From a virus: 64,000 bases of DNA. Position 1 is the first letter of the stretch. Every line of letters starts with the position of its first letter. The DNA lies in IMG/VR virus record IMGVR_UViG_3300036781_000275, positions 1-64,000 of that record; one strand, given 5' to 3'. This document shows, piece by piece, positions 4,109-23,186 of the stretch. The position numbers and the translations under genes were made by a program. The notes beneath the pieces are model-generated. The model made no database searches, had not been told where the DNA came from, and was given only the letters and a program-made list of their open reading frames with translations.

Positions 4109-5023
4109 TTACGGCGTGCGCGTGATTTTGAGTGTGGTGTCCGTCGCGTCGACGCGCGCCTTCCACCCGAGCTTTTGCGAAATGCTGTTGTTCGGCCCCG
4201 GATTCGGGTTGCCGAGTTCCGTGATGTACGCCTTCGCAATCGCGAACGCGTACTTGAGGCTCGACACTCCGCCGAATGTGAATGCGAGGGACGTCAGCGT
4301 ATGCGCGAGGAACTTCGCGGTGTACGTGTCGTCCTGAAAGTACAGCATGATCGAGCCTTCGAGCATGAACTGGCCCGGCAGAATGTCGAGCGGGTTCACG
4401 TTTGCAAGCTGCGGCTGGTTGATGATGCCGCGCGTGATTTTGAGTTGCAGCTCGGTCGCACCAGCCACCGACCCTGACCCGCCCTCCTGAATGAGCTGGA
4501 TCGAGTTGATCGGATCCATCACGGCGTTCGTGCCCACCGCCGTGTATGCGCCAGCGCCGGCCGTTGCGCTGGCCGAGATCATCGGGTTCGACGAGCCCTT
4601 CACGGATGCCGTCATGATCTTGCCGAGTGCCACGTCAATATCCAGCTCAGACGCCTGCCATCCCTTGTACGTCTGGAAACGGCCGATGTCCGTGAACGCC
4701 CGCTCCATCGTCAGCGCCTGTCGGGTCGTGCCCACCTTCAGCACGTTCGTCGCCCATGACGCCGCGAAGAGCGAGCCCATGATGTCGTCGAGCGCGCCAA
4801 ACGTGAGTTCCGAATCGAACCCAAGGTCTGCGCCCTGTTCGACCTGCACGATGTCCGCGATTTCCGCGTTCGCCGTGTTCTGCGCGCTGACGATGGTCGT
4901 TTTCTTCGGCGTGTCCGTGATCTTCGTGTACGGCAGTGCCTGCAACGCGGATGCTGGCGTGGTGCCACGCGTGACTTCCTTGATGTAGCCGAGCTGCTCT
5001 TTGTGGGAAATGGCAACGGTCAT
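4109..5023 (-). CDS. major tail tube protein
   Basis: A 304-residue protein starting MTVAISHKEQLGYIKEVTRG. It has the beta-rich, Gly/Thr/Ala-rich composition of siphovirus tail tube subunits and an N-terminal region like the 'phage tail tube protein' family (polymer inner-tube fold, related to lambda gpV and Hcp). It lies between the tail terminator-like gene and the chaperone pair, the standard place. It should polymerise around the tape measure. Assignment rests on pattern and position, not an alignment. Confidence 0.8.
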   Translation of the reverse strand: MTVAISHKEQLGYIKEVTRGTTPASALQALPYTKITDTPKKTTIVSAQNTANAEIADIVQVEQGADLGFDSELTFGALDDIMGSLFAASWATNVLKVGTTRQALTMERAFTDIGRFQTYKGWQASELDIDVALGKIMTASVKGSSNPMISASATAGAGAYTAVGTNAVMDPINSIQLIQEGGSGSVAGATELQLKITRGIINQPQLANVNPLDILPGQFMLEGSIMLYFQDDTYTAKFLAHTLTSLAFTFGGVSSLKYAFAIAKAYITELGNPNPGPNNSISQKLGWKARVDATDTTLKITRTP

Positions 5024-8091: not shown

Positions 8092-9234
8092 TTACGCTTG
8101 CACCACGCGCAGTGCGAGCTGCGGATCGAGCAGCTTGACGCCGAACAGCGCGTCGAGCGCCACGACCACCTTCGAGTTGGTCTGGTCGTACCACATCCGC
8201 ACGCGCAGCGCGAGCTGCGTCTTCGGATCCGAGATCGACGACATCCGCGTGCCGCCGAACGACGCGCCCATCGTGGAGAGCGGGGCCATCGCGAGCGCCG
8301 CGAAATTGCGGTGGAACATCAGGTTCTGCCGCTTCGATGCGCCGCCGAGATAGAACGTCAGCACCTCCGCGCCCACCGTCGCCTGCTTGAGCGCCGGCGT
8401 GAATGCCAACGTCGCCGCATTGCCGTCCGCGTCCGTGCCGTCCGTCGAGATCACGTACCGCTGCGCGTCGCCGGCGATCGAGAACGAGTCGCCCGCCTTG
8501 TACGTGATGCCCGCCGTGAAGCCCGAGGCGAGAATCGAGCTGACGCCGATCGCGTTCGCGCCGTCGACGGTGCCCGTGAAGTCCGCGGACACGCCCGACG
8601 TGTGCGTCGGCATGTTCTGGTTCTGGAACATTTCGAAGTCGAACAGGCGGCCCATCGTGCCGCGGCGCACCGCGACGTCCTGCTGATTCGGCTGCATGCC
8701 CGACGCGGCCAGTCCCTTCAGGATCGCGGCTTCCGTCGCGCCGGTCACCCCGAAGAACAGGTTCTCCGAATCTTCGAGCGGCCACAGCAAGTCCGTCGCC
8801 GCGGCGCGCGCGTCCGCGATGTCGTTCAGCGTGAACGGCGTCGCAGCGAGGTAGTAGTTGGGGAGCTGCTTGTAGATCGCCGCGAGTGCGAGATCGATCT
8901 TGTCGGCGAGCGCGTACGCAGCGGGCCGAATGTGGTCGGTGATGATCTGCGGCGCGGAGAGCGTCAGATCCTTGTCGTTCAACCCGAACCGGACGCCCTT
9001 CCACGTGTCGAGATTGATCGACAGCGAGTCCGTGTTCAGATCCTGAATCGACGACGGCTCGTCCTGTGCGGTGAACGTGCCCGGTCGGCGGATCTGGATC
9101 GTCGACCCCTTCTGCTGCACGGTCGGGTCATAGCCGCGATAGACGCGGCTCGCGAAACCGAGCGCCTTTTCGAGCTGAATCAGCGCTTCCTGCGCGAAAA
9201 AGTCTTCGTCGTAATTGCCAAGATTGTTCGGCAT
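8092..9234 (-). CDS. major capsid (coat) protein, P22-like
   Basis: A 380-residue protein beginning MPNNLGNYDEDFFAQEALIQ. The pattern 'LE..LGFA..V.R.YDP.....G.TI.IRRP' at residues 22-53 and 'LTLSAPQIITDHIRPAA.ALAD.ID' around 91-115 is that of P22 coat-type (gp5) proteins with an HK97 fold. It builds the icosahedral shell on the scaffold encoded upstream. A GGAG-like site precedes the ATG. The leader is unusually long and structured, and a terminator follows. Confidence 0.85.
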   Translation of the reverse strand: MPNNLGNYDEDFFAQEALIQLEKALGFASRVYRGYDPTVQQKGSTIQIRRPGTFTAQDEPSSIQDLNTDSLSINLDTWKGVRFGLNDKDLTLSAPQIITDHIRPAAYALADKIDLALAAIYKQLPNYYLAATPFTLNDIADARAAATDLLWPLEDSENLFFGVTGATEAAILKGLAASGMQPNQQDVAVRRGTMGRLFDFEMFQNQNMPTHTSGVSADFTGTVDGANAIGVSSILASGFTAGITYKAGDSFSIAGDAQRYVISTDGTDADGNAATLAFTPALKQATVGAEVLTFYLGGASKRQNLMFHRNFAALAMAPLSTMGASFGGTRMSSISDPKTQLALRVRMWYDQTNSKVVVALDALFGVKLLDPQLALRVVQA

Positions 9235-9933: not shown

Positions 9934-10794
9934 CTATTCTGGTCGCTTCTTGACCGACCCCCCTCGCTTGGCAGCCAGTGCCTTCGCGGCGCGGTACTTC
10001 TCAGGGATACGGAAATCTTCCGCGCTCAGCCAGACGTCGACGCCGCCCTCGCTCTGCCGGCCACCGTTCGCGCGGCCACCCGAGCCTGACGTATCGGGCG
10101 CGGGAAAGTTTTTCGCGAACTTCTTGTTCTCGCGCATCTCGGCGATTGCATCGGCGATCGTGACCGGCGCGCCGTCGAGCCCCTTCGTGCGCACGTTCCC
10201 TTCCGCGTCGACAACACGCGTCACGTAGCCCGTGCCTTCCTTGACCATCTTGAGTTGCTTGATCAGGTGCGGCAACAGTACGTCCACGTCGTCAGTCTGG
10301 CCGGCGAGCCCAGTCATCGCGCGCGCTTCGATCATTTCGGAGTGCAAGCTGACCAGCGCTTCATCGCGCTCCGCGGTGATCGTGGCGATCTGCTTCGCGG
10401 CTTCTTTCTTGACGCGTTCCTGCTCGGCCAATAGCGCGTCTTTGCCTGATGTGTCGACGCCCTTTTTGCGCAGCTCCGCCAGCTCGGCGCGTTCGGCTTG
10501 GATCTCTTCGATCGTCCCGAATTCCTCGTACCGTTTCTTTTCGTCGGCGAGTTTGCGATTCGCCTTGAGCAAGTCGTCGCGTTTTTTGATGACGCCCTGA
10601 ACTTCGCTCTCCTTGTATGTCTTCTCCGCTTTGGCCCCGGTGCCGCCCTCGCCACCGTCACCTCCGTCGCCGCCGGCCGCACCGTCGTCTCCCCCTGCGC
10701 CGCCCGTGCCGCCGCCCGTGCCGCCGCCCGCACCGCCATCGCCATCAGGAGGGAATTTGTAAAACGCCCTCGCATACCACCGACGTCCGCGCAT
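9934..10794 (-). CDS. capsid scaffolding protein
   Basis: A 286-residue protein with an N-terminal Gly/Asp-rich disordered segment, a long charged coiled coil (about 75-180; EEIQAERAELAELRKKGVD) and a Gly-rich linker before a basic C-terminus. This is the layout of GP20-type/scaffold proteins. It is encoded just before the protease-like gene and the coat gene. I prefer the ATG at 10794 (preceded by GGCGGGTGG) over a GTG at 10851. It should direct coat assembly and leave the head before packaging. Confidence 0.7.
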   Translation of the reverse strand: MRGRRWYARAFYKFPPDGDGGAGGGTGGGTGGAGGDDGAAGGDGGDGGEGGTGAKAEKTYKESEVQGVIKKRDDLLKANRKLADEKKRYEEFGTIEEIQAERAELAELRKKGVDTSGKDALLAEQERVKKEAAKQIATITAERDEALVSLHSEMIEARAMTGLAGQTDDVDVLLPHLIKQLKMVKEGTGYVTRVVDAEGNVRTKGLDGAPVTIADAIAEMRENKKFAKNFPAPDTSGSGGRANGGRQSEGGVDVWLSAEDFRIPEKYRAAKALAAKRGGSVKKRPE

Positions 10795-10931
10795 GTCTAC
10801 CACCCGCCGCTGAGTGTGTTTGTCGGGCGTCGGGGCCGCTCCCCGCGCCACTTGCTTTCAATCACGAACGGCATGGAGTATGCGTGCCCCTTGCGGAAAA
10901 CGCAACAGGGCAGGACGAGTTTTCTGGCGCG

Positions 10932-12002
10932 CTACGCGGCGCGCTGCTGATCTTCGCGCTGGCCTAACGGTTGCCGCGATGAGGCCGCAAGGAAATCGGC
11001 CCGCCGCGTCGCGTTGACCGGGAGCACGCTGATTACCTGCGTGCACCGGCAGTTGTAGACGCCATCGCCCGGCACCATGACGCCCCCGTCGACCGGATAT
11101 AGCTCGTTGATTCCGACTGTCGTCCCGTGGGCGTCGTGATGCTCGTCGCGTTCACGGCCGTCGAGTGTGGTCACCCACGTCTTCACGATGTCCTGCTCGT
11201 CGACGCCGGCCGCGTCCGCGAAGTTGAGCCACGCGCCGAACTGCGCGTTCTTCAGCGCGCCGAGTGAGGCCGTACGTGACCATGCCTCTGCGCGATTTGC
11301 GAGCAGCTTCCGGCCGTACGCGAGTACCATGCTGTCGATCTTTGCTTGCGTAATCGTGCCTTGCCCGGCAATCAGTTTTTCGAGTATCGAGTCATAGCGC
11401 TGATCACGGAGCGCGCGCGTCAGCACCTTCGGATCGCCAGCGATCGCGTTAATGACGTCCGCGCGAAACGATTGAATCAGCGAGTTGTCGTACGGGGTGA
11501 GCCCGATGAACTGTCGCGCCTCAACCGCCACTTGCCGCGGGTTGATGCCGGCCGCGAGTCCGCGCGAAATTACGTCGACGAACCCGGCGCGCGCCTGCCC
11601 CAAGAGCTGCGGCACCATCTGCTGCACGTAGCCAGCGAGCACTTCCTGCGCCGGCCCTATGTTCGGGTTCCATGTGAAGCGCGCCAGTGTCCCGCCGGCG
11701 GCCGTCACGATGCGCGGCAGATCGGCGTTCGACACGATCTGTCCGCCGCGGCTGAAGGTGTCCGCAATCGACCGCACGATCATCGCGGTTGCCGCGTTCG
11801 ACAGTCCTGAGCCGTACACGGCGTCGGCCGCGGCGAGCACGTTGCCTGAAGCGATCGCGTCGACGACCGCCTTGAACGCGATGTTATCCCTGATCTGCGC
11901 GATCGCCGATTCGAAGGCGCGCCGCACGACCGGCCCGCGCTCCGCGAGCAGCCGATCGAGCCGCGACAGGAGTCGCGCCTGCGTGCCGGTGAGCTGTGCC
12001 AC
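10932..12002 (-). CDS. phage head morphogenesis (minor head) protein
   Basis: A 356-residue helical protein. The C-terminal third carries the SPP1 gp7/Mu gpF-type motif: TWVTTLDGRERDEHHDAHG, then a pro-rich segment and GVYNCRC (about 300-325), where the paired Cys/His residues are typical. Members are minor capsid proteins near the portal and are thought to help DNA ejection. It lies two genes from the scaffold. A Gln/Arg-rich tail ends the protein. Confidence 0.8.
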   Translation of the reverse strand: MAQLTGTQARLLSRLDRLLAERGPVVRRAFESAIAQIRDNIAFKAVVDAIASGNVLAAADAVYGSGLSNAATAMIVRSIADTFSRGGQIVSNADLPRIVTAAGGTLARFTWNPNIGPAQEVLAGYVQQMVPQLLGQARAGFVDVISRGLAAGINPRQVAVEARQFIGLTPYDNSLIQSFRADVINAIAGDPKVLTRALRDQRYDSILEKLIAGQGTITQAKIDSMVLAYGRKLLANRAEAWSRTASLGALKNAQFGAWLNFADAAGVDEQDIVKTWVTTLDGRERDEHHDAHGTTVGINELYPVDGGVMVPGDGVYNCRCTQVISVLPVNATRRADFLAASSRQPLGQREDQQRAA

Positions 12003-12003
12003 G

Positions 12004-12276
12004 TTACGGCTTTTTGGTCTCCGCCTGTCGGCCCTTGATGGCTTCGACGAGCGCGCCCAAACACAGATCCTTCATGAACCGGCCGGCGGCGAATTGCGCT
12101 TGGGCTTCCGACATGCCGCCTTTCACGAGTCCGACGAAATACGCGGCGTGCATGAGGCCGAGCATCGTGGTACTCGCGGAGATTTCGCTTGCGCGCTGCG
12201 CGAGGAAGTTCGCGACGACCTCTTCGATCATGTCCCTCGCTTTTTCCCGATTCGCGTCACTCGGTTGGTCACTCAT
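12004..12276 (-). CDS. small helical hypothetical protein
   Basis: A 90-residue protein (MSDQPSDANREKARDMIEEV). The ATG at 12276 is chosen because it overlaps the upstream stop in an ATGAGTGA junction, the usual coupling style here. It is helical, with LGLMHAAYFVGLVKGGMSEAQ in the centre and a Lys-rich end. No family recognised. Its place next to the head morphogenesis gene suggests a virion-assembly accessory role. Confidence 0.6.
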   Translation of the reverse strand: MSDQPSDANREKARDMIEEVVANFLAQRASEISASTTMLGLMHAAYFVGLVKGGMSEAQAQFAAGRFMKDLCLGALVEAIKGRQAETKKP

Positions 12277-12658
12277 TCTCGACGACTCCCGGTCGTGCAT
12301 CGTTGTACTCGCATTCCAGCGTCAACCGTTGATCGGTGTCCACGATGATCGTGATGATCGGCGTCGCGCCGCTCCCAAAGAGCTGCGACATCAAGGACGG
12401 CGTGAGGCCGACCGCATCGAAGTGAATCAGCCAATCACCAACTTCCTGTTCTGGCTGATCGCCGACATACACAACGGTCGCATCACAACCGGGATCCGGC
12501 GAGACGGTCGTTGAGGCGTCGCTCGCCGCGAGAAACGCCGACACCGCCTTCATCATGCTCGGGATGAGCGGCACTTTCGCGCCCGTCGTCAGATCAACCG
12601 TTTGTAGCGGCACAATCAGGTCGATGTCGTTGAGCGGACTTACCGGGATAGTCGCCAT
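12269..12658 (-). CDS. hypothetical structural-region protein
   Basis: A 129-residue, beta-rich, acidic protein (MATIPVSPLNDIDLIVPLQT). It contains repeated 'VD.(D/T)' strands and ends DARPGVVENE. It lies between the big repeat protein and the head morphogenesis gene and is coupled to both (10-base gap upstream, 8-base overlap downstream). Function unknown; a small tail or neck component is possible. Confidence 0.6.
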   Translation of the reverse strand: MATIPVSPLNDIDLIVPLQTVDLTTGAKVPLIPSMMKAVSAFLAASDASTTVSPDPGCDATVVYVGDQPEQEVGDWLIHFDAVGLTPSLMSQLFGSGATPIITIIVDTDQRLTLECEYNDARPGVVENE

Positions 12659-12668
12659 GTGGGCTCCG

Positions 12669-14300
12669 TTACGTGTTCGGCTCGATGCGTCGAATGCGAA
12701 TAATAGGGACCGTGTTGATGACGGTCACGGTTGGCGTCGTATCCAATGCCAGCACCGGCGCTGAGGTGTCGAGTAGCGCGACCGTACGCGAGACGTCGAG
12801 ATACTGGATCGCCGCCGGATCCGTCCGGTGCACGCGCGCCAGCGAGCGCCCGTAGCATCGCGCAAAGGCACGCGCCGTGCCGATCGAGATAAAGCCGGCG
12901 TCGCTGAGCGCGAACGCACGGGCCAGCGCACGCGCGGTGCCGGCCACTTCGATCGTGGTCCGTGCGTGCCCGGTCGCTCTGGAGAGCGCGCGCGCCGTGC
13001 CACGCACGTCGTCCGTGGTCGTGCTGCGGCCGACCGCGCGCGCCAGCGCCACCGCGTGCCCCGTGCAGCCGACGCGTGTTTCCGCTTGCCCGAAGGCTCG
13101 TGCCAGCGCACAGGCGGTGCCGCGAGCCGCGTCGACGTTCTCCGACTGTCCGAGAGCCCGGCCAAGCGCGCGCGCCATACCCTGCGCGGCGACTCCAGTG
13201 GCACCCGGCGCTTCCGCGCGGCTCAGGGCGCGGGCGGTGCCAGCCGTGGCCACCCGCGACGCCCCGTGGCCACTCAGCGCCCGGCTGAGCGCGCGCGCTA
13301 TGCCGGCCGATTCGAGCCGACTGGATCCGGGTCCGCCGAGTCCGCGGGCCAGCGCGCTCGCCCGCCCCGCGCACGGGATGATCGTGGTCGTAAAGCCAAG
13401 CCCAGTCCCGCGCGCGAGCGCGCGCGCTACGCCGGTGCAAGCGACGGTCGTGCCAATGATCTCCGACGTACCAACCGCGCGGCCAAGCGCGCGCGCCGTG
13501 CCCGCGCACGCAACCGTTGTTCCCGCGATCTGCGCCTGACCGTAGGCGCGCGCGAGCGCGCGAGCGGGCGCGGCCAGCGAATACAGTACGACTTCGCCCG
13601 GCGTGAATGCTCTGGCGAGCGCCCGCGCCGTGCCGGTGCATTCGACGAATGTGCCAGCCGTCGCGACGCCATAGGCGCGGGCGAGTGCGCGCGCCGGCGC
13701 GGCATAGCCGACAAGGTTGATCCCGGTCGCGAGCGCGCGCGGTAGCGCGTGCGCAATGCCAGCCGTTGGCACCGTGGTCCCGATGAGATCGCTGAGCCCG
13801 CTTGCGCGCGAGAGCGCGCGAGCGACGCCGACGCATTCGAGCCGCGTGTCACCGGGGCCAAGCCCGCGCGCGAACGTGCGTGCCGTGCCGGTGCACGGGA
13901 TGATTGTGGTCGTGAAGCTGAGCCCGGTGGCGCGTGGTAGCGTGCGCGCGAGACCGGCTGTCGCGACACGCGTCGCGCCCGGAGCGGTAACGCGACTGAG
14001 GCTGCGCGCCACGCCCGCCGTCGCGAGTCGGCTCGATCCAGCGCCGCCGAGCCCGCGCGTCAACGCTCGCGCTTTCCCGGCGCATGCTACGATGTCGCTG
14101 CCGCCGGCCGCCGTCGCCACACCGAATGCGCGCGGCAACGCCCTCGCCGGAGCTGCGTAGCCGACAAGGTTGACACTGAGCGCGAGTGCAACCGCCAACG
14201 CGCGCGCTTTGCCATTGCATGCGACGATGTTCGCCGGGTTGCCGACTTGGCCTTGCCCGACGTACGCGCTATTCGCGCCGACGACGATCCCGTTCGCCAT
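12669..14300 (-). CDS. giant A-R-A-L repeat protein (about 22 tandem ~20-24-residue repeats)
   Basis: A 543-residue protein (MANGIVVGANSAYVGQG). Residues about 27-475 are a tandem array with consensus 'x-G-x-A-R-A-L-(A/S)-R-A-x-G', followed by a variable 6-10-residue Thr/Gly/Val segment. Examples are GTARALARAF, GVARALSRAS and APARALARAY. Larger blocks recur, such as FTTTIIP before two repeats and NLVGYAAPARAL twice. The C-terminus (about 500-543) is a short beta region with LLDTSAPVLALDTTPTV. There is no signal peptide. It lies among fibre-like genes, so a virion fibre or display protein is likely. I know of no named family with this repeat. Confidence 0.85.
   Translation of the reverse strand: MANGIVVGANSAYVGQGQVGNPANIVACNGKARALAVALALSVNLVGYAAPARALPRAFGVATAAGGSDIVACAGKARALTRGLGGAGSSRLATAGVARSLSRVTAPGATRVATAGLARTLPRATGLSFTTTIIPCTGTARTFARGLGPGDTRLECVGVARALSRASGLSDLIGTTVPTAGIAHALPRALATGINLVGYAAPARALARAYGVATAGTFVECTGTARALARAFTPGEVVLYSLAAPARALARAYGQAQIAGTTVACAGTARALGRAVGTSEIIGTTVACTGVARALARGTGLGFTTTIIPCAGRASALARGLGGPGSSRLESAGIARALSRALSGHGASRVATAGTARALSRAEAPGATGVAAQGMARALGRALGQSENVDAARGTACALARAFGQAETRVGCTGHAVALARAVGRSTTTDDVRGTARALSRATGHARTTIEVAGTARALARAFALSDAGFISIGTARAFARCYGRSLARVHRTDPAAIQYLDVSRTVALLDTSAPVLALDTTPTVTVINTVPIIRIRRIEPNT
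12810..14230 (-). repeat. degenerate ~60-72-bp coding repeat array
   Basis: The DNA of the A-R-A-L protein holds about 22 diverged copies of a unit built around GCGCGCGC-rich words coding A-R-A-L. Unit lengths change in steps of three, which suggests growth by in-frame recombination between copies. Larger segments of two or more units are duplicated. It is also the reason long open frames appear on the opposite strand here. Confidence 0.8.
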
Positions 14301-14311
14301 GCTCGCTTACG

Positions 14312-15292
14312 TCACACGAGTTCGACGGTCGCGGTTTCTACGACCAGCTCGTCCGATGCGTTGCTCACGTTCATCGTGAATTGCACGCTCAATACCCGAT
14401 CGCCGGCATTAGAGTCGACCGCCGCTGCACCCGAAAATGGGCCGCCTGTTGGTAGCGTGCCAGCCGTAGTCGGAAATGCTGGACCAATGCCAGTCGTCGC
14501 AGTCGTACGTGCCCCGATCGGGCTGATGCTGAGCATGCCGACCAACGCCTGATCGGCGTTCGCCTGCGCGCACACGTCGAACGTCAGGAACCACGCCGCG
14601 CGATCGGCGTCCGCGGTCGAGGCGGCTGACGTTACATCGAACATCGTGGTGCCACCGTAGATGATCTTGATGCGCACGGTGGGCGTGCCGCTATTCCAGA
14701 GGAAGTTTCCGCCCATGCGGACGCGCAGCGTCTTCCCCGACAAAAAGAGTCCGCTCGGGATCGTGACGCCAGACCCCGCCTTGTTGAGCGCCTCAATCGC
14801 CGACGATGTGGTGTTCGTGGTCTCGGCGGCCACCGTCTTGAAAATGGTGATCGGCCCCGATGCCTGAATGACGCGCATGTCGACAATCTGATCCGTACTG
14901 ATCGTCGTGTCTGAGGCCGGCACATACACCGCCGCAATCACCACGTCGTTCGCCGTGCGCGCCGGTGGTGCGGGGGTCGCCGATGGCGTGCCGGCGCGCA
15001 CGGCCTTCGTGCCAGAGGAATTGACCACGACGAGATCGATGCGCGGATTCGAGCCGTCCGCTGTCGTAATCGTCACGTTCCCAGCGGTGACCGGCTTGAG
15101 TATGCCGTTCGTGAGCACCGCGCCTTTCGCGACCGCGCATGTCATGTCGGGCGAGCCTTGCGCGGTGACTGCGCAGCCCGAGAGCACGCAATCGGTGCCC
15201 ACCATGCCGGCGGTGAGCACGTCGAGATATGCGCTGAACAGCACACTCTGAAAATCGCTCTGCGCGGTGCCCTTATCGGGAATCGTCCACAT
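14312..15292 (-). CDS. putative tail fibre / receptor-binding-type protein
   Basis: A 326-residue beta-rich protein. The N-terminal half (TAQSDFQSVLFSAYLDVLTA; GCAVTAQGSPDMTCAVAKGA; NPRIDLVVVNSSGTKAVRAG; NDVVIAAVYVPASDTTISTD) is a pattern I recognise from phage fibre/baseplate-associated proteins with an N-terminal virion-binding module. The C-terminal half is a jelly-roll-like segment (LRVRMGGNFLWNSGTPTVRI). It is encoded beside other fibre-like genes. The specific receptor cannot be predicted. Confidence 0.6.
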   Translation of the reverse strand: MWTIPDKGTAQSDFQSVLFSAYLDVLTAGMVGTDCVLSGCAVTAQGSPDMTCAVAKGAVLTNGILKPVTAGNVTITTADGSNPRIDLVVVNSSGTKAVRAGTPSATPAPPARTANDVVIAAVYVPASDTTISTDQIVDMRVIQASGPITIFKTVAAETTNTTSSAIEALNKAGSGVTIPSGLFLSGKTLRVRMGGNFLWNSGTPTVRIKIIYGGTTMFDVTSAASTADADRAAWFLTFDVCAQANADQALVGMLSISPIGARTTATTGIGPAFPTTAGTLPTGGPFSGAAAVDSNAGDRVLSVQFTMNVSNASDELVVETATVELV

Positions 15293-15301
15293 GGTTCATC
15301 C

Positions 15302-16060
15302 TCAGAGTTTGATCAAGACCTTGACGTATTGCGCGAGCTGCCTGATGCGGAGCGTTGCGAGTGCGCGCGCGATCGCGATCGCCACGCCCGCTGTTGGCAC
15401 CGTCGTTGCACCGGTTGCCGGCAAGTAGGCGACGGCTAAGCCGAACCAGTTCAAATTCACGCCACAGTCCACCGTGAGCGCCGGCGAACTATCGCTGCCG
15501 ATCAGTTTGTATTGCACATAACCAGTGATGAAGCCGGTGCCGTTGTTCTGAGAAAATATCAGTGAGTCGCTAGCGGCCGTGTAGGTCAATACGCCAGAGC
15601 TATCTTCGTTGAGCAGCGAAACCACGACGCCGCCTGCATGTGCTCCTACTGCGCCGCTGCTCTCCGCTTCTGTCGATCCCGTATTTGTGACCGGCGAGCC
15701 GTCGAGCGGCGAGGCGTTGAAATTGGAATACTCGGCTGCCCCAGCAAATCCGAGATCTGAAGAGGGATCCGCTAATAGCGTCAGCGATCCGCTCCCGGTC
15801 ACCGGTACGCGCCATATCTGCTGCTTGAGGTGCCCGCTGAGTACAGAGTTCTCCGCATCCTTCACTGGCGTACCGAGGGTCGCCGTTCCAGCCGTTTTCG
15901 TTATAACAAACGACCCACCAGCACCGGCGGAGTTGAAGCTGGTTCCCGTTACGACAATCGTATTGCCATTCGTTACGTCGACCGACATAACGAGCGGTAT
16001 CGCGGCTACCGTAACCGACCATGCGGCACCCTGCGTCTGGACGCATGCGATAGAAGTCAT
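15302..16060 (-). CDS. fibre-like beta protein with a terminal ARAL-type repeat
   Basis: A 252-residue Ser/Thr/Gly/Val-rich protein with Ig-like or lectin-like strand spacing (NGNTIVVTGTSFNSAGAGG). Near the C-terminus it carries TVPTAGVAIAIARALA, clearly similar to the repeat unit of the 543-residue neighbour. This suggests shared ancestry or a shared docking motif. No catalytic motif. Confidence 0.6.
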   Translation of the reverse strand: MTSIACVQTQGAAWSVTVAAIPLVMSVDVTNGNTIVVTGTSFNSAGAGGSFVITKTAGTATLGTPVKDAENSVLSGHLKQQIWRVPVTGSGSLTLLADPSSDLGFAGAAEYSNFNASPLDGSPVTNTGSTEAESSGAVGAHAGGVVVSLLNEDSSGVLTYTAASDSLIFSQNNGTGFITGYVQYKLIGSDSSPALTVDCGVNLNWFGLAVAYLPATGATTVPTAGVAIAIARALATLRIRQLAQYVKVLIKL

Positions 16061-16067
16061 GAATCAA

Positions 16068-16808
16068 TCAAAGATTGTGAGCGGCCCACTGGCTGAATCC
16101 GTACTCGGCATTATGCCCCGCGCCTGCTGCTTCCAGATTGAAACCCATCCCCGGTGTCCCATCGGACCACTCGCTATCCGTGGCCGAGCCAATCAGCACG
16201 CCGTTCTTATACAGACTGATCACGTTGCCAATCGCGTCAGCGGTAATCGTATCGCCGGTCACGACGTTGTATTGCGATCCGCTGAATGGCGAACCGCCGA
16301 TGTAGTCGAAGTCTCCGAGATCGCCATGCCATACGACGATGATCGCGTACCCGCCGCCGCCCTGATCCATCGAGAGCGAACACTCGTATCCGCGGTTCGT
16401 ATTGGCGGAGATTGCTGAACGGAGGTTGACGATAGTGCCGGTCGCGCGCTGATTCGCCGAGAACGGCGTCGTCAGAATCGCGGTGGCGTCGCGGAACCCA
16501 CCGCTCACGTCGATCTGCTGGCGGCCGAATGCGAGTCCCGGCGTCTTCTGCACGTTGGCCCATTTGAGCCCCGTCGTGAACCCGCCCCTCCAGATGCCGC
16601 CCTCTGAAATGGGGTTCTCTGTGCCGGCAAACGCCGAGCCGTAGCCCAACAATCCGTTCGCGCGTGCGCGTGCGAGCGCACGCCCAGTTCCCAGCCCGTC
16701 TACAAACGTTTGGCTGGGAACTGGCGCAACGAGTCGGTTTCGAACACGTACGGACGGCAGCTCAGATCTGGATGACCAGCGCGGCCGACGCGAATTCTGG
16801 CGTCGCAT
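16068..16808 (-). CDS. lectin-like (concanavalin/SPRY-type) fibre protein
   Basis: A 246-residue protein. Residues about 60-240 look like a SPRY/concanavalin-like sandwich: GDTITADAIGNVISLYKNG, then DGTPGMGF. Before it is an A-R-A-L type segment (GLGTGRALARARANGLLGYG). The only ATG is at 16808 and overlaps the upstream gene by 47 bases, so the start is uncertain; the first ~20 Arg/Ser-rich residues may not be translated. Likely a carbohydrate-binding fibre part. Confidence 0.55.
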   Translation of the reverse strand: MRRQNSRRPRWSSRSELPSVRVRNRLVAPVPSQTFVDGLGTGRALARARANGLLGYGSAFAGTENPISEGGIWRGGFTTGLKWANVQKTPGLAFGRQQIDVSGGFRDATAILTTPFSANQRATGTIVNLRSAISANTNRGYECSLSMDQGGGGYAIIVVWHGDLGDFDYIGGSPFSGSQYNVVTGDTITADAIGNVISLYKNGVLIGSATDSEWSDGTPGMGFNLEAAGAGHNAEYGFSQWAAHNL

Positions 16809-17440: not shown

Positions 17441-19174
17441 CTACGCCGCTTGCTGTCCTTTCCCCGGTGGCGGTGGCGCGCCGCCACCACCGCCCGGCCC
17501 TGCCGCTGATCCCGTCGCTTCGATGTTCGTACCGTCTGGCGTCGTGGCCGTGACGTGTACGCCTTCCGCCTCTGCGATCTTCACCCCCGACTTCGCTTCC
17601 GCGAGCATCCGGTCCTTCGTGAGCGCCGCGAGCTGCGTCAGGAGCGCATCATCGAGGCCCATGTCATCCGGCAACTTGCCGGTGCGCAGCACGTGCTGCA
17701 TCGCGGCCAAATCGATGCCGTCCTTGAGGTAAATCTCCCAGCACAGTTGCACGAACGGCAGGTTGAACTCTTCGAAGAACGACGTGTCGAATTCGAGCGA
17801 GCCGCCGGCCACGGGATCCAGTCCCATGTATGCGGCCATATCGCCCTGTGCGCCTTCGAGTGCGTCCTTGAGCGATTCGACGGCCGCCTTCAATCGGCCA
17901 TTGCGCGACCGTACCATGATCGCGACTTCCGTCGCGGTCATCGGGCTCGCGTCGGTCTTCCCTTCGAGCATGATGCCGCCCTGCAATTCCATGCGGCGTT
18001 CAAGATCGACGAGCCGCGTGCGCACTGCGCCAATGTCAACGCCAGATGTCTCCAGCATCTTCGCGTCGCCGCCCATCGGGACGTCGATGCCGTAACCGCC
18101 CATCTTCACGGTGCCTTCGCCTTTCGCTCTCGCGTCGCGGCCGATGAACACAGGCGTCGGGTTGCACATTTTGTGCATTTTTATCGCGTAATCGCTCGTG
18201 ACTTGCGTGTGCTCGACGTTCGTCTGCGCGAGCCCCCACAGATACGGCTCGCTCTTCAGCATGCCGAGCCGGCGGCCGAGGTACGCGACGCGCAGCGGAA
18301 TCGTCTTGGGGCCGCGCACGGTGCCCGACGTGTCAATCTGGATCGCGGTGCGACCGGTGCGCCGGCCATTGCTGGCCATGACGTCCTGCTCTTTCCAGAC
18401 CTCCCACGTGATTTCGCCGAGCCCAATAGGTTGCGGGTCGCCAACCGGATCGCCATCGTCGTTCATGCCGGTCGTCGTGGCCTGATCGTAAATGACTTCC
18501 TGCGTGAACACGCGGTACTGCTCGACTTCCTTCGTGCCGAAGCGTCCTTTCTTTTCTTCGATGCACTCTTTGATCACGACCTGCGCCAAGCGCTCGATGC
18601 CGCCAATGACCACGGGCACCCACGAGATGATCTGATCGGCGCGCACGACGCGCATGTACGGCCGGATCCCGCGCGTGTTGAGATCATCGAGCGTGAGATT
18701 CGATCCGACTGGCACGTTGGGATATTCCGTCAGAATCGCGACGTGCCCGTCGAGTCCTTCATCGAACGCCTGCCGCGCGAACACGTCGAGGTTTTGGCCT
18801 TCGCCGTCGATGTTCTCCAGCAGCTCAACGATCTTCTTGTCGATGTCGTCGCCGCGTTTGATGCCGCGGGCGAACACGATGCCCATCAGGCCCTGCGCGG
18901 TCTGCTCGTACGCGTCGAACGCCCACGTGATGGCGAGGCGGGCTTGATAGTCGAGCGTGTCTTCAGAGAGAAACTTGGGGAGATATTGCGCCGACTGGTT
19001 CTGCGAGTACGTCGCGTCGGGCATCATGGCGACGGAGCCGCGAAATGCCGGCGTGCCGCGGCGCACGTCGTGACAGAAGTCCCACTTCAGCTTCTGCAAG
19101 TCGTACGCGGCGCATGTCGCGTCTGGCGTATCGCCCGACGAGGCCGCGTCGGGTGTGTCGTTCGAAGATGCCAT
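17441..19174 (-). CDS. portal protein (DUF4055-type)
   Basis: A 577-residue protein. The motif DFCHDVRRGTPAFRGSVAMM near the N-terminus, the wing/stem region (WAFDAYEQTAQGLMGIVFAR), and SRNGRLKAAVESLKDALEGA plus the C-terminal acidic and Gly/Pro-rich tail fit the DUF4055 portal family. It forms the dodecameric vertex through which terminase pumps DNA. The location between fibre genes and terminase, rather than immediately next to terminase, is a little unusual; a TOPRIM protein and small genes intervene. Confidence 0.82.
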   Translation of the reverse strand: MASSNDTPDAASSGDTPDATCAAYDLQKLKWDFCHDVRRGTPAFRGSVAMMPDATYSQNQSAQYLPKFLSEDTLDYQARLAITWAFDAYEQTAQGLMGIVFARGIKRGDDIDKKIVELLENIDGEGQNLDVFARQAFDEGLDGHVAILTEYPNVPVGSNLTLDDLNTRGIRPYMRVVRADQIISWVPVVIGGIERLAQVVIKECIEEKKGRFGTKEVEQYRVFTQEVIYDQATTTGMNDDGDPVGDPQPIGLGEITWEVWKEQDVMASNGRRTGRTAIQIDTSGTVRGPKTIPLRVAYLGRRLGMLKSEPYLWGLAQTNVEHTQVTSDYAIKMHKMCNPTPVFIGRDARAKGEGTVKMGGYGIDVPMGGDAKMLETSGVDIGAVRTRLVDLERRMELQGGIMLEGKTDASPMTATEVAIMVRSRNGRLKAAVESLKDALEGAQGDMAAYMGLDPVAGGSLEFDTSFFEEFNLPFVQLCWEIYLKDGIDLAAMQHVLRTGKLPDDMGLDDALLTQLAALTKDRMLAEAKSGVKIAEAEGVHVTATTPDGTNIEATGSAAGPGGGGGAPPPPGKGQQAA

Positions 19175-19336: not shown

Positions 19337-20386
19337 TTACTCCTCTTCGTCCCCGTCCGGTTCCTCCTCCTCGTCTTCATCGTCGCTCGGCTCAACTGGC
19401 GGCTCCTCATCGATGAGCGCCGCAAGGTTGCCCGCGAAATCGTCGGGCATCTCTTTGCGCAGATCCTGCGCGACGGTCGTGTACGCATCGCTCACCAGCC
19501 CCAGCTCGGTGCGCGCCTCCTGCTCTGCGCGCAACACGCTGTTCCATGCGTCGACGTCCAGCTCTTTCATGACCTCGCGTTCCACGAGATCCGCGAGCAC
19601 GGTCGGATCGAGCGCGTCCAGCTCCCACGATTCGTCGCCGTACTTGAACTGGTAATCGTTGAACCGGCTGTCGGTTTCCTTCGCCGGGTTCGGCGGCGGC
19701 TTGTACCGATCTATCTGCGGCATGTTGAGCGCGAGCCGCCGCACCTCGACGCTGCGCGCGCCGAATAGCACGAGGCGATCACGAATGTCGCGCGTCATGT
19801 CGATCCCGCTCGGATCGTGATCGCCGAAATGCAGGATCAAAATGTCACGGCCCGGATTGATGCGCCCGACACCCTTCGGCTTGGTGCCGACGCTCACGTG
19901 CCTCAGTCGCTGCGCTGCGCCCCAGATTTCGGAATCGCTCGTGTAGCCGCGGCACGAGAAGAACGGCAACCGCCATTTGTGCGCGACGCGTTCGAACACG
20001 CCCATCAGTGCGTCTTTCTCGAACCACACTTCGATGTACGTGGGCTGCGTCAGCCACCGATCAAAGCGGAATTGTTCGGCGACGGCCTGCACGATGTCGG
20101 CCGGCGATTCCCACTTCGACAGATCCTGAAGGTTGCGTGTGCGATCGACAATCGCGCTCCAGTCAATCAGGCCAGCGCGCCGGCCCTTGCTGACGATGTT
20201 GCCGAGCCGGTTGTATTCGCGCGCCGTGTTCGGGATGTAATCACGGCTCACGAATTGGTAATAGAGCTGGCGCAGCGTGAGCGTGTAGCCGAGCGCTGCG
20301 TACTCGTCGATGATCTGGTTCGCCTGTACGATCACCGCGAGTGTGGCGTCCTTCATGCCGACGACTTCGTACGCAATCTTCGGCAT
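19337..20386 (-). CDS. topoisomerase VI A / Spo11-like TOPRIM domain protein
   Basis: A 349-residue protein (MPKIAYEVVGMKDATLAVIV). The N-terminal half is helical with LTLRQLYYQFVSRDYIPNT, a winged-helix-like region, and a Tyr/Arg-rich RRAGLIDWSAIVDRTR. The TOPRIM-type core DILILHFGDHDPSGIDMTRD carries the acidic D-x-D as in TopoVI-A. An acidic tail (DDEDEEEEPDGDEEE) follows. Such proteins are known in phages, but function is not settled; DNA cleavage is inferred from fold only. Located between the portal and small genes. Confidence 0.68.
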   Translation of the reverse strand: MPKIAYEVVGMKDATLAVIVQANQIIDEYAALGYTLTLRQLYYQFVSRDYIPNTAREYNRLGNIVSKGRRAGLIDWSAIVDRTRNLQDLSKWESPADIVQAVAEQFRFDRWLTQPTYIEVWFEKDALMGVFERVAHKWRLPFFSCRGYTSDSEIWGAAQRLRHVSVGTKPKGVGRINPGRDILILHFGDHDPSGIDMTRDIRDRLVLFGARSVEVRRLALNMPQIDRYKPPPNPAKETDSRFNDYQFKYGDESWELDALDPTVLADLVEREVMKELDVDAWNSVLRAEQEARTELGLVSDAYTTVAQDLRKEMPDDFAGNLAALIDEEPPVEPSDDEDEEEEPDGDEEE

Positions 20387-20387
20387 G

Positions 20388-21029
20388 CTATTTCGCGTCG
20401 CCGCTCACGCAAAACTGATCCAGCCATGCGTGTACATCCGCCAAGGTGCGTTGATCCGCGTCATTCCATCCTCGCACAACGGACACCATCTCCTCTGTGC
20501 CACCAACTTCCAGCACCGCGCCGGCGAGACAGAAGCAATCGCCTTTGTCTGGCAGCACTTTCTTGTCAGCGCCCTTGATCCAATGTTCGGGGTCAAGCAA
20601 CGCTTTCGCTTTTGTTGCGATTTCGCACGTGGGTTGCGCATAAGGCTTCGGCGCGGCAATGAGACCGCCACCGTGCCAGTCGCCACCGTGCCAGTCGCCA
20701 CCGCGCCAGACGCCACCGCGCCAGTCGCCACCGCGCCAGACGCCACCGCGCCAGTCGCCACCGTGCCAGTCGCCACCGCGCCAGACGCCACCGCGCCAGT
20801 CGCCACCGCGCCAGACGCCACCGCGCCAGTCGCCACCGCGCCAGACGCCACCGCGCCAGTCGCCACCGTGCCAGACGCCACCGTGCCAGACGCCACCGCG
20901 CCAGACGCCACCGTGCCAGTCGCCACCGCGCCAGACAACGCGGCCTCGCGCGTCGATCTCTATGTCGGCGTTTTCGGTAATCGCGCGCACCAGCCATGCG
21001 GGCGCGTTTGAGAGTTCGGAAATTTTCAT
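20388..21029 (-). CDS. WxGG pentapeptide-repeat protein
   Basis: A 213-residue protein starting MKISELSNAPAWLVRAITEN at an ATG preceded by a purine-rich stretch. Residues about 37-127 hold 18 exact pentads W(R/H)GG(D/V). A C-terminal domain follows (KALLDPEHWIKGADKKVLP, then a Cys-containing GDCFCLAGAVLEVGG). Repeats of this kind are seen in scattered phage and bacterial proteins and may form a beta-helix-like or Trp-ladder structure. Function unknown. The DNA copy number is likely to vary. Confidence 0.75.
   Translation of the reverse strand: MKISELSNAPAWLVRAITENADIEIDARGRVVWRGGDWHGGVWRGGVWHGGVWHGGDWRGGVWRGGDWRGGVWRGGDWRGGVWRGGDWHGGDWRGGVWRGGDWRGGVWRGGDWHGGDWHGGGLIAAPKPYAQPTCEIATKAKALLDPEHWIKGADKKVLPDKGDCFCLAGAVLEVGGTEEMVSVVRGWNDADQRTLADVHAWLDQFCVSGDAK
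20666..20935 (-). repeat. 18 tandem copies of a 15-bp repeat
   Basis: The unit is cgccaccgYgccagW on the plus strand and holds exactly 18 copies (270 bp) with only two variable positions. It encodes the WxGG pentads in the overlapping gene. Because units are 15 bp, slippage keeps the frame. Variation is confined to R/H and D/V codons. Confidence 0.95.
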
Positions 21030-21054
21030 TGCCTTAGAGAGAAGAATCTGGTCA

Positions 21055-21408
21055 TCACAAACCGTCCGCTTTGCGCATGAGCGTTTTCGCCTGCTCGATT
21101 GTAAACGCGCCACCCATGCGCCGATGAAACTGCTGCACTGCCGCTGCTTCCGACATATGCCTGAACAGTTTGATTTCCTCGGCGTTTGGAGCTGGCCATT
21201 GTGGCTGTACATCTGGCGCGAGCACGCGCACGCCGCCATCGGTTCTATAGACTTCGACCACGTTGATTGCCGGCGTAATGCCGTTGTCGAATTGGCGCAG
21301 TGAGATTAGCCCGCCAGTGCCATCGGGAAAGCTGAACTGCACGATCCGTTCGCCCGGCGCAGCACATTTCTGCGCGCCGGGCGCTGGTTCCACCTGTGCC
21401 AGCTTCAC
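21055..21408 (-). CDS. hypothetical protein
   Basis: A 117-residue protein beginning VKLAQVEPAPGAQKCAAPG from a GTG that overlaps the upstream stop (CTGTGA). Middle: FSFPDGTGGLISLRQFDNG, a beta segment. The C-terminus is helical (MSEAAAVQQFHRRMGGAFTI). No family recognised. It is in a two-gene unit with the upstream 87-residue gene under promoter-operator a. Confidence 0.6.
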   Translation of the reverse strand: MKLAQVEPAPGAQKCAAPGERIVQFSFPDGTGGLISLRQFDNGITPAINVVEVYRTDGGVRVLAPDVQPQWPAPNAEEIKLFRHMSEAAAVQQFHRRMGGAFTIEQAKTLMRKADGL

Positions 21409-21776: not shown

Positions 21777-23186
21777 TTAGAACCGCACACGCACTCGGCC
21801 CCATTTCCCGCGCACCGTATTCAGCCGGTAGCGCCACTCGTCGCCGATATGGTCCTCGTTCTCTGTGTTGACGTCGTTGATCTTGATCAAATCGCGCTGG
21901 AGCGCCGGCACGGTGCGAATGAATTGCGGGCACGTGTTCCAGCAGAAAAACCCCGCCTCTTCCATCGCCGATTTCTTCGCGTCCTTGAAATCGTGCGACG
22001 CCATTAGCATCGATCGGCATTTCTCCCAGCCATTGACGCGATGGTTGTCGGCGTCAATCCAATCAACGCCGCGCTCCTTCATCTGCTTCGCAATCGAGTC
22101 GCCGGTTGTGGCGTCGTGCGTGATCGTCGGATCAGCCGGCCCACCGTACACGGTCACACCGTACTTGTCCTGAATTGTTTTGTCTGCTGCGAGCACCGCC
22201 TCTGCGATCTGGCGGTTTGTCCAGTGCACGCCCTCGTTCGGCTTGCCTGACCACCCGTAAATCTCTGCGATGCGAAACACTGTGCCGGGCGGAAACTTGT
22301 ACATGCGCCCGTCCGCCAGCTCGCACGGCGTGCCGTCGCTCTCCGCGTAGTAGCCCACGCTGAACGGTTTCGCCGAGCCCCAGTCGAACGCACGGTCAAC
22401 GTACCACGCCTTCGGGATCCTGAATGGCTGCATCACGTGCACATCAGCGTTCCACAGATCATCGAAGAATCCGCCGGCCACTATGTCCCACCCACCCTTG
22501 AGCCACGCTTTGCGCCGGTGCGGATCCGTGTCGGCGGCCAAGATGTGCGGATACCGCGGGTCCGCTTTGATCAGCGCTTTGTTCTCGGACCAGTGGCCGC
22601 GCACGCGCACGCGTGTGATGCCGCCTTTGAGCCGGATGATCTTGCCGGCGGGCGCGGGATCGATGACGTACGCCTTCACGACGTGGTGCCCAACACCGAA
22701 CGGGTTCGTGGTCGCGCGGATCCGCCGCGGCACGCCCGGATGCGTCGAGCGACAGCACGTGTTCATCGCCTCATAGCACTGCATGTTCGGCCAGTTCGTT
22801 AGCTCATCCCAGCCGATCCACGGGTACTCGTGCCCGTGATAATTCCAGTAGTCTTTCGGCGATGCCATGTAGCGCAACAACAGCTCTTCGCCCGTTGCGA
22901 ATTTCCAAATGTGGTCGCTGGCGTTGTACTTGGCGTCAGGGAAGCATGCCGAGAACAGACGGATCGATTTCTCGATGACGTCGCTCAGCTCCTTGTAGGT
23001 GCGCCGGAACAGGATGCCGCGCCAGTATCGGCCGTACCCCTGCCCGACCTCGCTCGCGAAGTCCGCGAGCAGCGCGACGGTCTTACCGGGTCCGCGCGTC
23101 CCGTCGTAAATCGTCTCTAGCGCCGGCGATGTCAGGAACACGCGCTGCGAGCCGGGTTGCGCTTCCCACGCGGCGAAATCGATCAC
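21777..23186 (-). CDS. terL: terminase large subunit
   Basis: A 469-residue ATPase-nuclease. Walker A GTRGPGKT at residues 29-36, Walker B YPWIGWDEL near 120, and a coupling motif ATTNPFG near 160. The nuclease domain has FDWGSAKPFSVGYY (about 270) and further acidic residues (YGGPADPTITHD). This matches the phage TerL arrangement that packages and cuts DNA at the portal. The start overlaps the upstream HNH stop by 4 bases. A regulon promoter lies just beyond its 3' end. Confidence 0.92.
   Translation of the reverse strand: MIDFAAWEAQPGSQRVFLTSPALETIYDGTRGPGKTVALLADFASEVGQGYGRYWRGILFRRTYKELSDVIEKSIRLFSACFPDAKYNASDHIWKFATGEELLLRYMASPKDYWNYHGHEYPWIGWDELTNWPNMQCYEAMNTCCRSTHPGVPRRIRATTNPFGVGHHVVKAYVIDPAPAGKIIRLKGGITRVRVRGHWSENKALIKADPRYPHILAADTDPHRRKAWLKGGWDIVAGGFFDDLWNADVHVMQPFRIPKAWYVDRAFDWGSAKPFSVGYYAESDGTPCELADGRMYKFPPGTVFRIAEIYGWSGKPNEGVHWTNRQIAEAVLAADKTIQDKYGVTVYGGPADPTITHDATTGDSIAKQMKERGVDWIDADNHRVNGWEKCRSMLMASHDFKDAKKSAMEEAGFFCWNTCPQFIRTVPALQRDLIKINDVNTENEDHIGDEWRYRLNTVRGKWGRVRVRF

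Follow-up and report, generated by a model that had tools for sequence, protein, structure and literature searches.

A 22-repeat protein of a siphovirus-like phage, probably a fibre stalk and a counterpart of the ETD-repeat proteins

Judged by its relatives, the phage analyzed here would be siphovirus-like, and by coat protein the named phages closest to it are those of the Nanhaivirus group (R5C, R26L and Pan1), with Vibrio phage MAR10 further off. Among the coat-protein relatives, locus L029 encodes, just upstream of the portal gene, a protein of 206 aa in which a 20-residue repeat of the type GQASETDTGLAFT occurs seven times, and L029 is the only locus with an ETD-type repeat in an earlier set of 84 loci, nearly all of which had been chosen by coat-protein similarity. 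A scan with the L029 repeat revealed 26 loci including L029's own contig (examples are L029:4001-4621, L103:7065-8450, L095 and others), with about 253 units in all, a modal spacing of 20, 3-40 units per protein and the signature GQAxETDTAQ (G-Q-A-x-E-T-D-x-A). Many of these proteins carry a large non-repeat N-terminal part. PHROG 14065 (function unknown) matches the L029 repeat protein, and gp13 of Streptomyces phage Keanu, which combines a large N-terminal part with similar repeats, is related but diverged. No mention of ETD repeat strings was found in the papers searched, and the ETD-repeat proteins are apparently a widely spread class with 20-residue repeats that lacks a description. From their architecture and neighbours, we infer that they are stalks.

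Nearly every ETD-repeat gene is accompanied by a gene for a conserved protein of about 157 aa with the motifs VFNIAKGRV...GYARK...DDTNDR...DIPDQTWTAV (L103:4802-5272, L029:5023-5502, L086:5836-6282 and about 20 other ETD loci). The two members tested matched no Pfam family above the cut-off, and the protein is likely an anchor or partner of the ETD stalk. At L109:6435-9557, ETD repeats and a C-terminal part are apparently fused in one open reading frame; the Cys/His pattern of that part, judged by eye, recalls Mu F-like head proteins, a likeness that PHROGs did not confirm. Different, highly repetitive proteins with periods of 14, 18 and 26 residues were also detected in coat-protein relatives (L066:16295-16858, L078:10767-14252 and L075:11330-15604), so repeat proteins recur near these coat-protein genes.

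Gene neighbourhood and repeat array

The window, which is the whole stretch of 64,000 nucleotides that was analyzed, comes from a 73,323-base virus record. The following genes are relevant here:

4109-5023, minor tail protein
8092..9234, minus strand, P22-like major coat protein
9934..10851, minus strand, head scaffolding protein
10932..12002, minus strand, Mu F-like head morphogenesis protein
12269..12658, minus strand, small protein of 129 aa directly after P0001
12669..14300, minus strand, P0001, repeat protein of 543 aa, with an ATG start and no internal stop
14312..15292, minus strand, gp14312, 326 aa, fibre/virion-like, directly upstream of P0001
15302..16060, minus strand, P0002, 252 aa, an orphan that by eye looks like a beta-rich head domain
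16068..16808, minus strand, P0003, 246 aa, homologous to a product of locus L119
16762..17388, minus strand, gp16762, 208 aa, Pfam PF23140 (podophage GP4 fiber I protein gp80; E 1.5e-9, above the cut-off)
17441..19174, minus strand, portal protein (DUF4055, family matches)
21777-23186, large terminase

P0001 comes fifth after the portal gene in a tight minus-strand run (11 bases to the preceding gene and 10 to the next) between the portal and coat genes. The slot after the portal gene holds gp16762, P0003, P0002, gp14312, P0001 and the 129-aa protein in this order, and P0001 lies within a block of fibre-like genes. The 129-aa protein has weak similarity to the small protein encoded behind the R5C portal gene (BLASTP E 3e-5, a single pair only).

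The protein itself was divided into three parts:

14241..14300, minus strand, N-terminal 20 residues of P0001, MANGIVVGANSAYVGQGQVG
12837..14240, minus strand, ARAL repeat array, 22 units, consensus xxTRVACAGTARALARALGx
12672..12836, minus strand, C-terminal 55 residues with beta-like repeats of about 10 residues (SRTVALLDT/SAPVLALDT/TPTVTVINT, by eye)

Anchored on the A-R-A-L word, the array comprises 22 repeats of 20-25 residues each (residues 21-488), and the conserved columns are occupied by G in 19, A in 22, R in 18, A in 19, L in 20, R in 21 and A in 16 of the 22 units. A hidden Markov model of one unit recovered exactly 22 domains (E = 2.5e-128). The loose ARAL word occurs 29 times in P0001, while 2000 same-composition shuffles averaged 1.7 occurrences and never exceeded 7, so the array is not explained by composition alone. 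An earlier reading of the sequence alone (hereafter the sequence-only reading) had described about 22 repeats with the consensus G-x-A-R-A-L-(A/S)-R-A in 543 residues, with which the column counts and the model agree, and had found no likeness to collagen, Ig, LRR, pentapeptide or WD repeats, which is borne out in that none of the LRR, WD40, Ig, collagen and pentapeptide families in Pfam scored above the cut-off.

Searches for relatives of P0001 found no close one in 50,697 phage records, 72,556 plasmids, IMG/VR and GTDB genomes, the records nearest the window's own perhaps lying outside the search. Nothing was obtained among phages or plasmids by tblastn, or in IMG/VR by peptide patterns or by a two-copy DNA pattern, and three GTDB matches were attributable to chance. 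P0001 matched no Pfam, PHROG or NCBIfam family; low-score NCBIfam matches and a PDB match at E 1.2 were regarded as composition noise. The C-terminal 55 residues had no match in databases.

In the coding frame, the repeat copies show more synonymous than non-synonymous differences (core pN/pS 0.51), and the other frames showed no synonymous excess except the antisense frame sharing third positions. Selection acts on the P0001 reading frame. The GC content of about 65% and the many overlapping open reading frames on both strands would suit a decaying gene, or a long frame left open by chance in GC-rich DNA, but the 22 protein-level copies with diverged DNA, the selection on the frame, the tight operon spacing on both sides and the conserved start make this origin extremely improbable.

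The most alike units (pairs 2/9 and 6/14) agree at 75% of their residues. Self-matches of 120 bases reach 69% at best, and Tandem Repeats Finder listed no array here. Because the copies have diverged to at most about 75% likeness, the array is considered old. The large internal duplications reported in the sequence-only reading are old and partial; with no near-identical copies, its suggestion of active length change is not supported, and neither is a phase-variable display.

Two further genes upstream of the portal gene were observed in the window. A DNA topoisomerase-like protein is encoded at 19337-20386 on the minus strand (phrog_6247, E 1.8e-105), and the adjoining minus-strand gene (20388-21239) encodes a protein with a DUF6197 domain fused to WRGGD/WHGGV-type pentads. 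The pentad array at 20666-20934 consists of about 18 near-identical 15-base units (92% matches) and, unlike the P0001 array, has a recently expanded look.

Links and gaps between P0001 and the ETD-repeat proteins

The upstream neighbour gp14312 aligns over its length with L103:6108-7064 at 62% identity (E 1e-136). In L103, the gene after this homologue starts at the very next base and encodes a 461-aa ETD-repeat protein, and the order of a gp14312-like gene followed by a repeat gene is common to the window and L103. An ungapped alignment pairs residues 4-22 of P0001 (GIVVGANSAYVGQGQVGNP) with residues 8-26 of the L103 ETD protein (GLVVGSSQSWVGNDMVGAP) at 10/19 identities, and its score of 51 was the best among 4370 N-termini of open reading frames (the next was 39; 0/5000 shuffles), a likeness that concerns one ETD protein, that of L103. 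Over its residues 54-245, P0003 has 36% identity to L119:8001-8654, whose locus includes an ETD-repeat gene, and the only P0003 relatives found in IMG/VR, in L119 and L120, both lie about 2 kb from such a gene, whereas in the earlier set of 84 loci a repeat of this kind turned up once. The repeat period is also comparable (mode 20 and range 20-25 in P0001; mode 20 among 253 ETD units).

The location of P0001 between the portal and the scaffold and coat genes, together with its strongly basic charge (57 Arg against 21 Asp+Glu), would fit an internal head or scaffold-associated protein packed in the capsid and perhaps touching DNA. We consider this improbable, as the adjoining genes are fibre-like (the GP4 fiber I family and gp14312) and the gp14312 homologue in L103 lies just before the tape measure gene, in the tail block and away from the head genes.

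At the level of the repeat letters, the ETD profile did not recognise P0001, and the G-x-A-x-E-x-D-x-A signature is absent from it. Profile-profile comparison of the ARAL and ETD repeats (hhalign) was not significant, and the best register reached a p of only about 0.1-0.25 once the common two-residue alternation was controlled. No single register was accepted, with MAFFT and hhalign scoring a shift of 10 best and BLASTP instead pairing TAQAMTR with TARALSR. A VFNIAKGRV-type partner gene was not found in the 73 kb record, where gp16762 gave a weak profile match only, and the lectin-like N-terminal parts of ETD proteins showed no match to P0002 by sequence. Because the ETD profile fails and the usual partner gene is missing, P0001 is not counted as a member of the ETD class. 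Since the gp14312 homology, the N-terminus match and the P0003 relatives are separate genes in agreement, it is best read as a positional and probably functional counterpart of the ETD-repeat stalks. The repeat letters were previously unfamiliar, as the sequence-only reading stated, but the architecture is matched among the ETD-repeat proteins; its placement of P0001 in a fibre region is supported, and a fibre stalk is the best reading.

A lone repeat unit was detected in a neighbouring gene:

15353..15406, minus strand, single ARAL unit in P0002, TTVPTAGVAIAIARALAT, 14/18 identical to one P0001 unit

P0002 ends in this unit, which ranked top among the 381 open reading frames of the window (0/3000 shuffles) and suggests that P0002 may dock on the P0001 rod by adding one coil. 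A possible unit in the first 53 residues of P0003 does not stand out above composition (score 51, fourth of 381 open reading frames, 7/3000 shuffles). Because this N-terminal stretch is absent from the L119 homologue, translation of P0003 may begin at another start codon and perhaps leave the unit out.

Fold of the ARAL repeat

Structure prediction, which had been proposed along with the sequence-only reading as a check, was run on six repeats by AlphaFold with an alignment of four six-repeat blocks of P0001, and in the resulting low-confidence model (pLDDT 59, pTM 0.53) each repeat forms two beta-strands. This model had no significant structural match (best E 0.075 in PDB and 0.003 in BFVD); its weak PDB neighbours include several beta-helices, and the top BFVD match, a tail fibre of Achromobacter phage JWX, lacks such repeats. 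AlphaFold 2 over-predicts beta-solenoids for repeats (PMC11795689), so no firm claim on the fold is made. A full-length single-sequence model without an alignment failed (pLDDT 35), and a fold search on it was meaningless. Side-chain volume alternates strictly between small and large over 11 positions of the ARAL motif, and proline occurs mid-word in 3/22 units, both of which would favour strands.

Alternatively, the repeats might be alpha/beta or helical, with A-R-A-L-A-R-A-L forming a two-turn amphipathic helix after a short strand, T as N-cap and G as C-cap. Arg and Leu do show a four-residue periodicity, the hydrophobic moment is greatest near 90-100 degrees, and the single-sequence model placed helices at the A-R-A-L words. 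Given the pLDDT of only 35 of that model, the all-beta result from the aligned blocks, the strict alternation and the mid-word prolines, a helical fold seems somewhat unlikely, and the helix-like words of the sequence-only reading are doubtful. This alternative concerns the fold, and a stalk role would still be possible under it. A further proposal, that the ARAL repeat is a new stalk fold, one face of which is all Ala/Gly and the other Arg/Leu, and that P0002 and perhaps P0003 plug onto it via a single repeat copy to give a self-templated, swappable multi-chain fibre, is regarded as rather doubtful.

Role of P0001 and comparison with known systems

Our preferred reading, to which we give a probability of roughly 0.7, is that P0001 is the stalk of a virion fibre, a 22-repeat rod most likely with two strands per repeat, within a module displaying host-binding domains, and a counterpart of the ETD stalks. 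As a long basic rod, it would carry or connect those domains. In other phages, too, a 20-residue-repeat protein follows this upstream gene and begins in a similar way, and in this phage the repeat letters of the stalk may have changed with its position in the module kept. The head domain would be encoded in separate genes (P0002 and P0003) instead of on the stalk chain, and the single unit of P0002 could dock that domain onto P0001 by stacking on the repeats. If the lone P0002 unit does so, fibre heads would be exchangeable without a change of stalk. More generally, the finding points to a class of putative phage stalk proteins, the ETD type, which come with a conserved partner gene and with genes for head domains nearby, and to P0001 as a probable case of rewritten letters in an unchanged place.

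Among known systems, the Dinoroseobacter phages R5C and R26L have a coat protein about 40% identical to that of the window and fibre-like genes in the same slot after the portal gene, but those genes are other sequences, annotated as 'tail repeat-like', without ARAL or ETD units. The fibre module of podophage GP4 (PF23140, gp80) is represented by the neighbour gp16762 above the Pfam cut-off, whereas P0001 itself has no match to it and the phage appears siphovirus-like. Beta-solenoid and beta-helix fibres and spikes share with the low-confidence P0001 model two short strands per repeat of about 20 residues, although an Ala/Gly face opposed to an Arg/Leu face is unusual. With the ETD-repeat proteins, P0001 shares tandem repeats of modal period 20, the gp14312-type neighbour and matching N-terminus (L103) and a nearby P0003 relative (L119). 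It differs from them in carrying G-T-A-R-A-L-A-R-A in place of G-Q-A-x-E-T-D-x-A, in a chain without the large N-terminal domain and with no VFNIAKGRV partner found.
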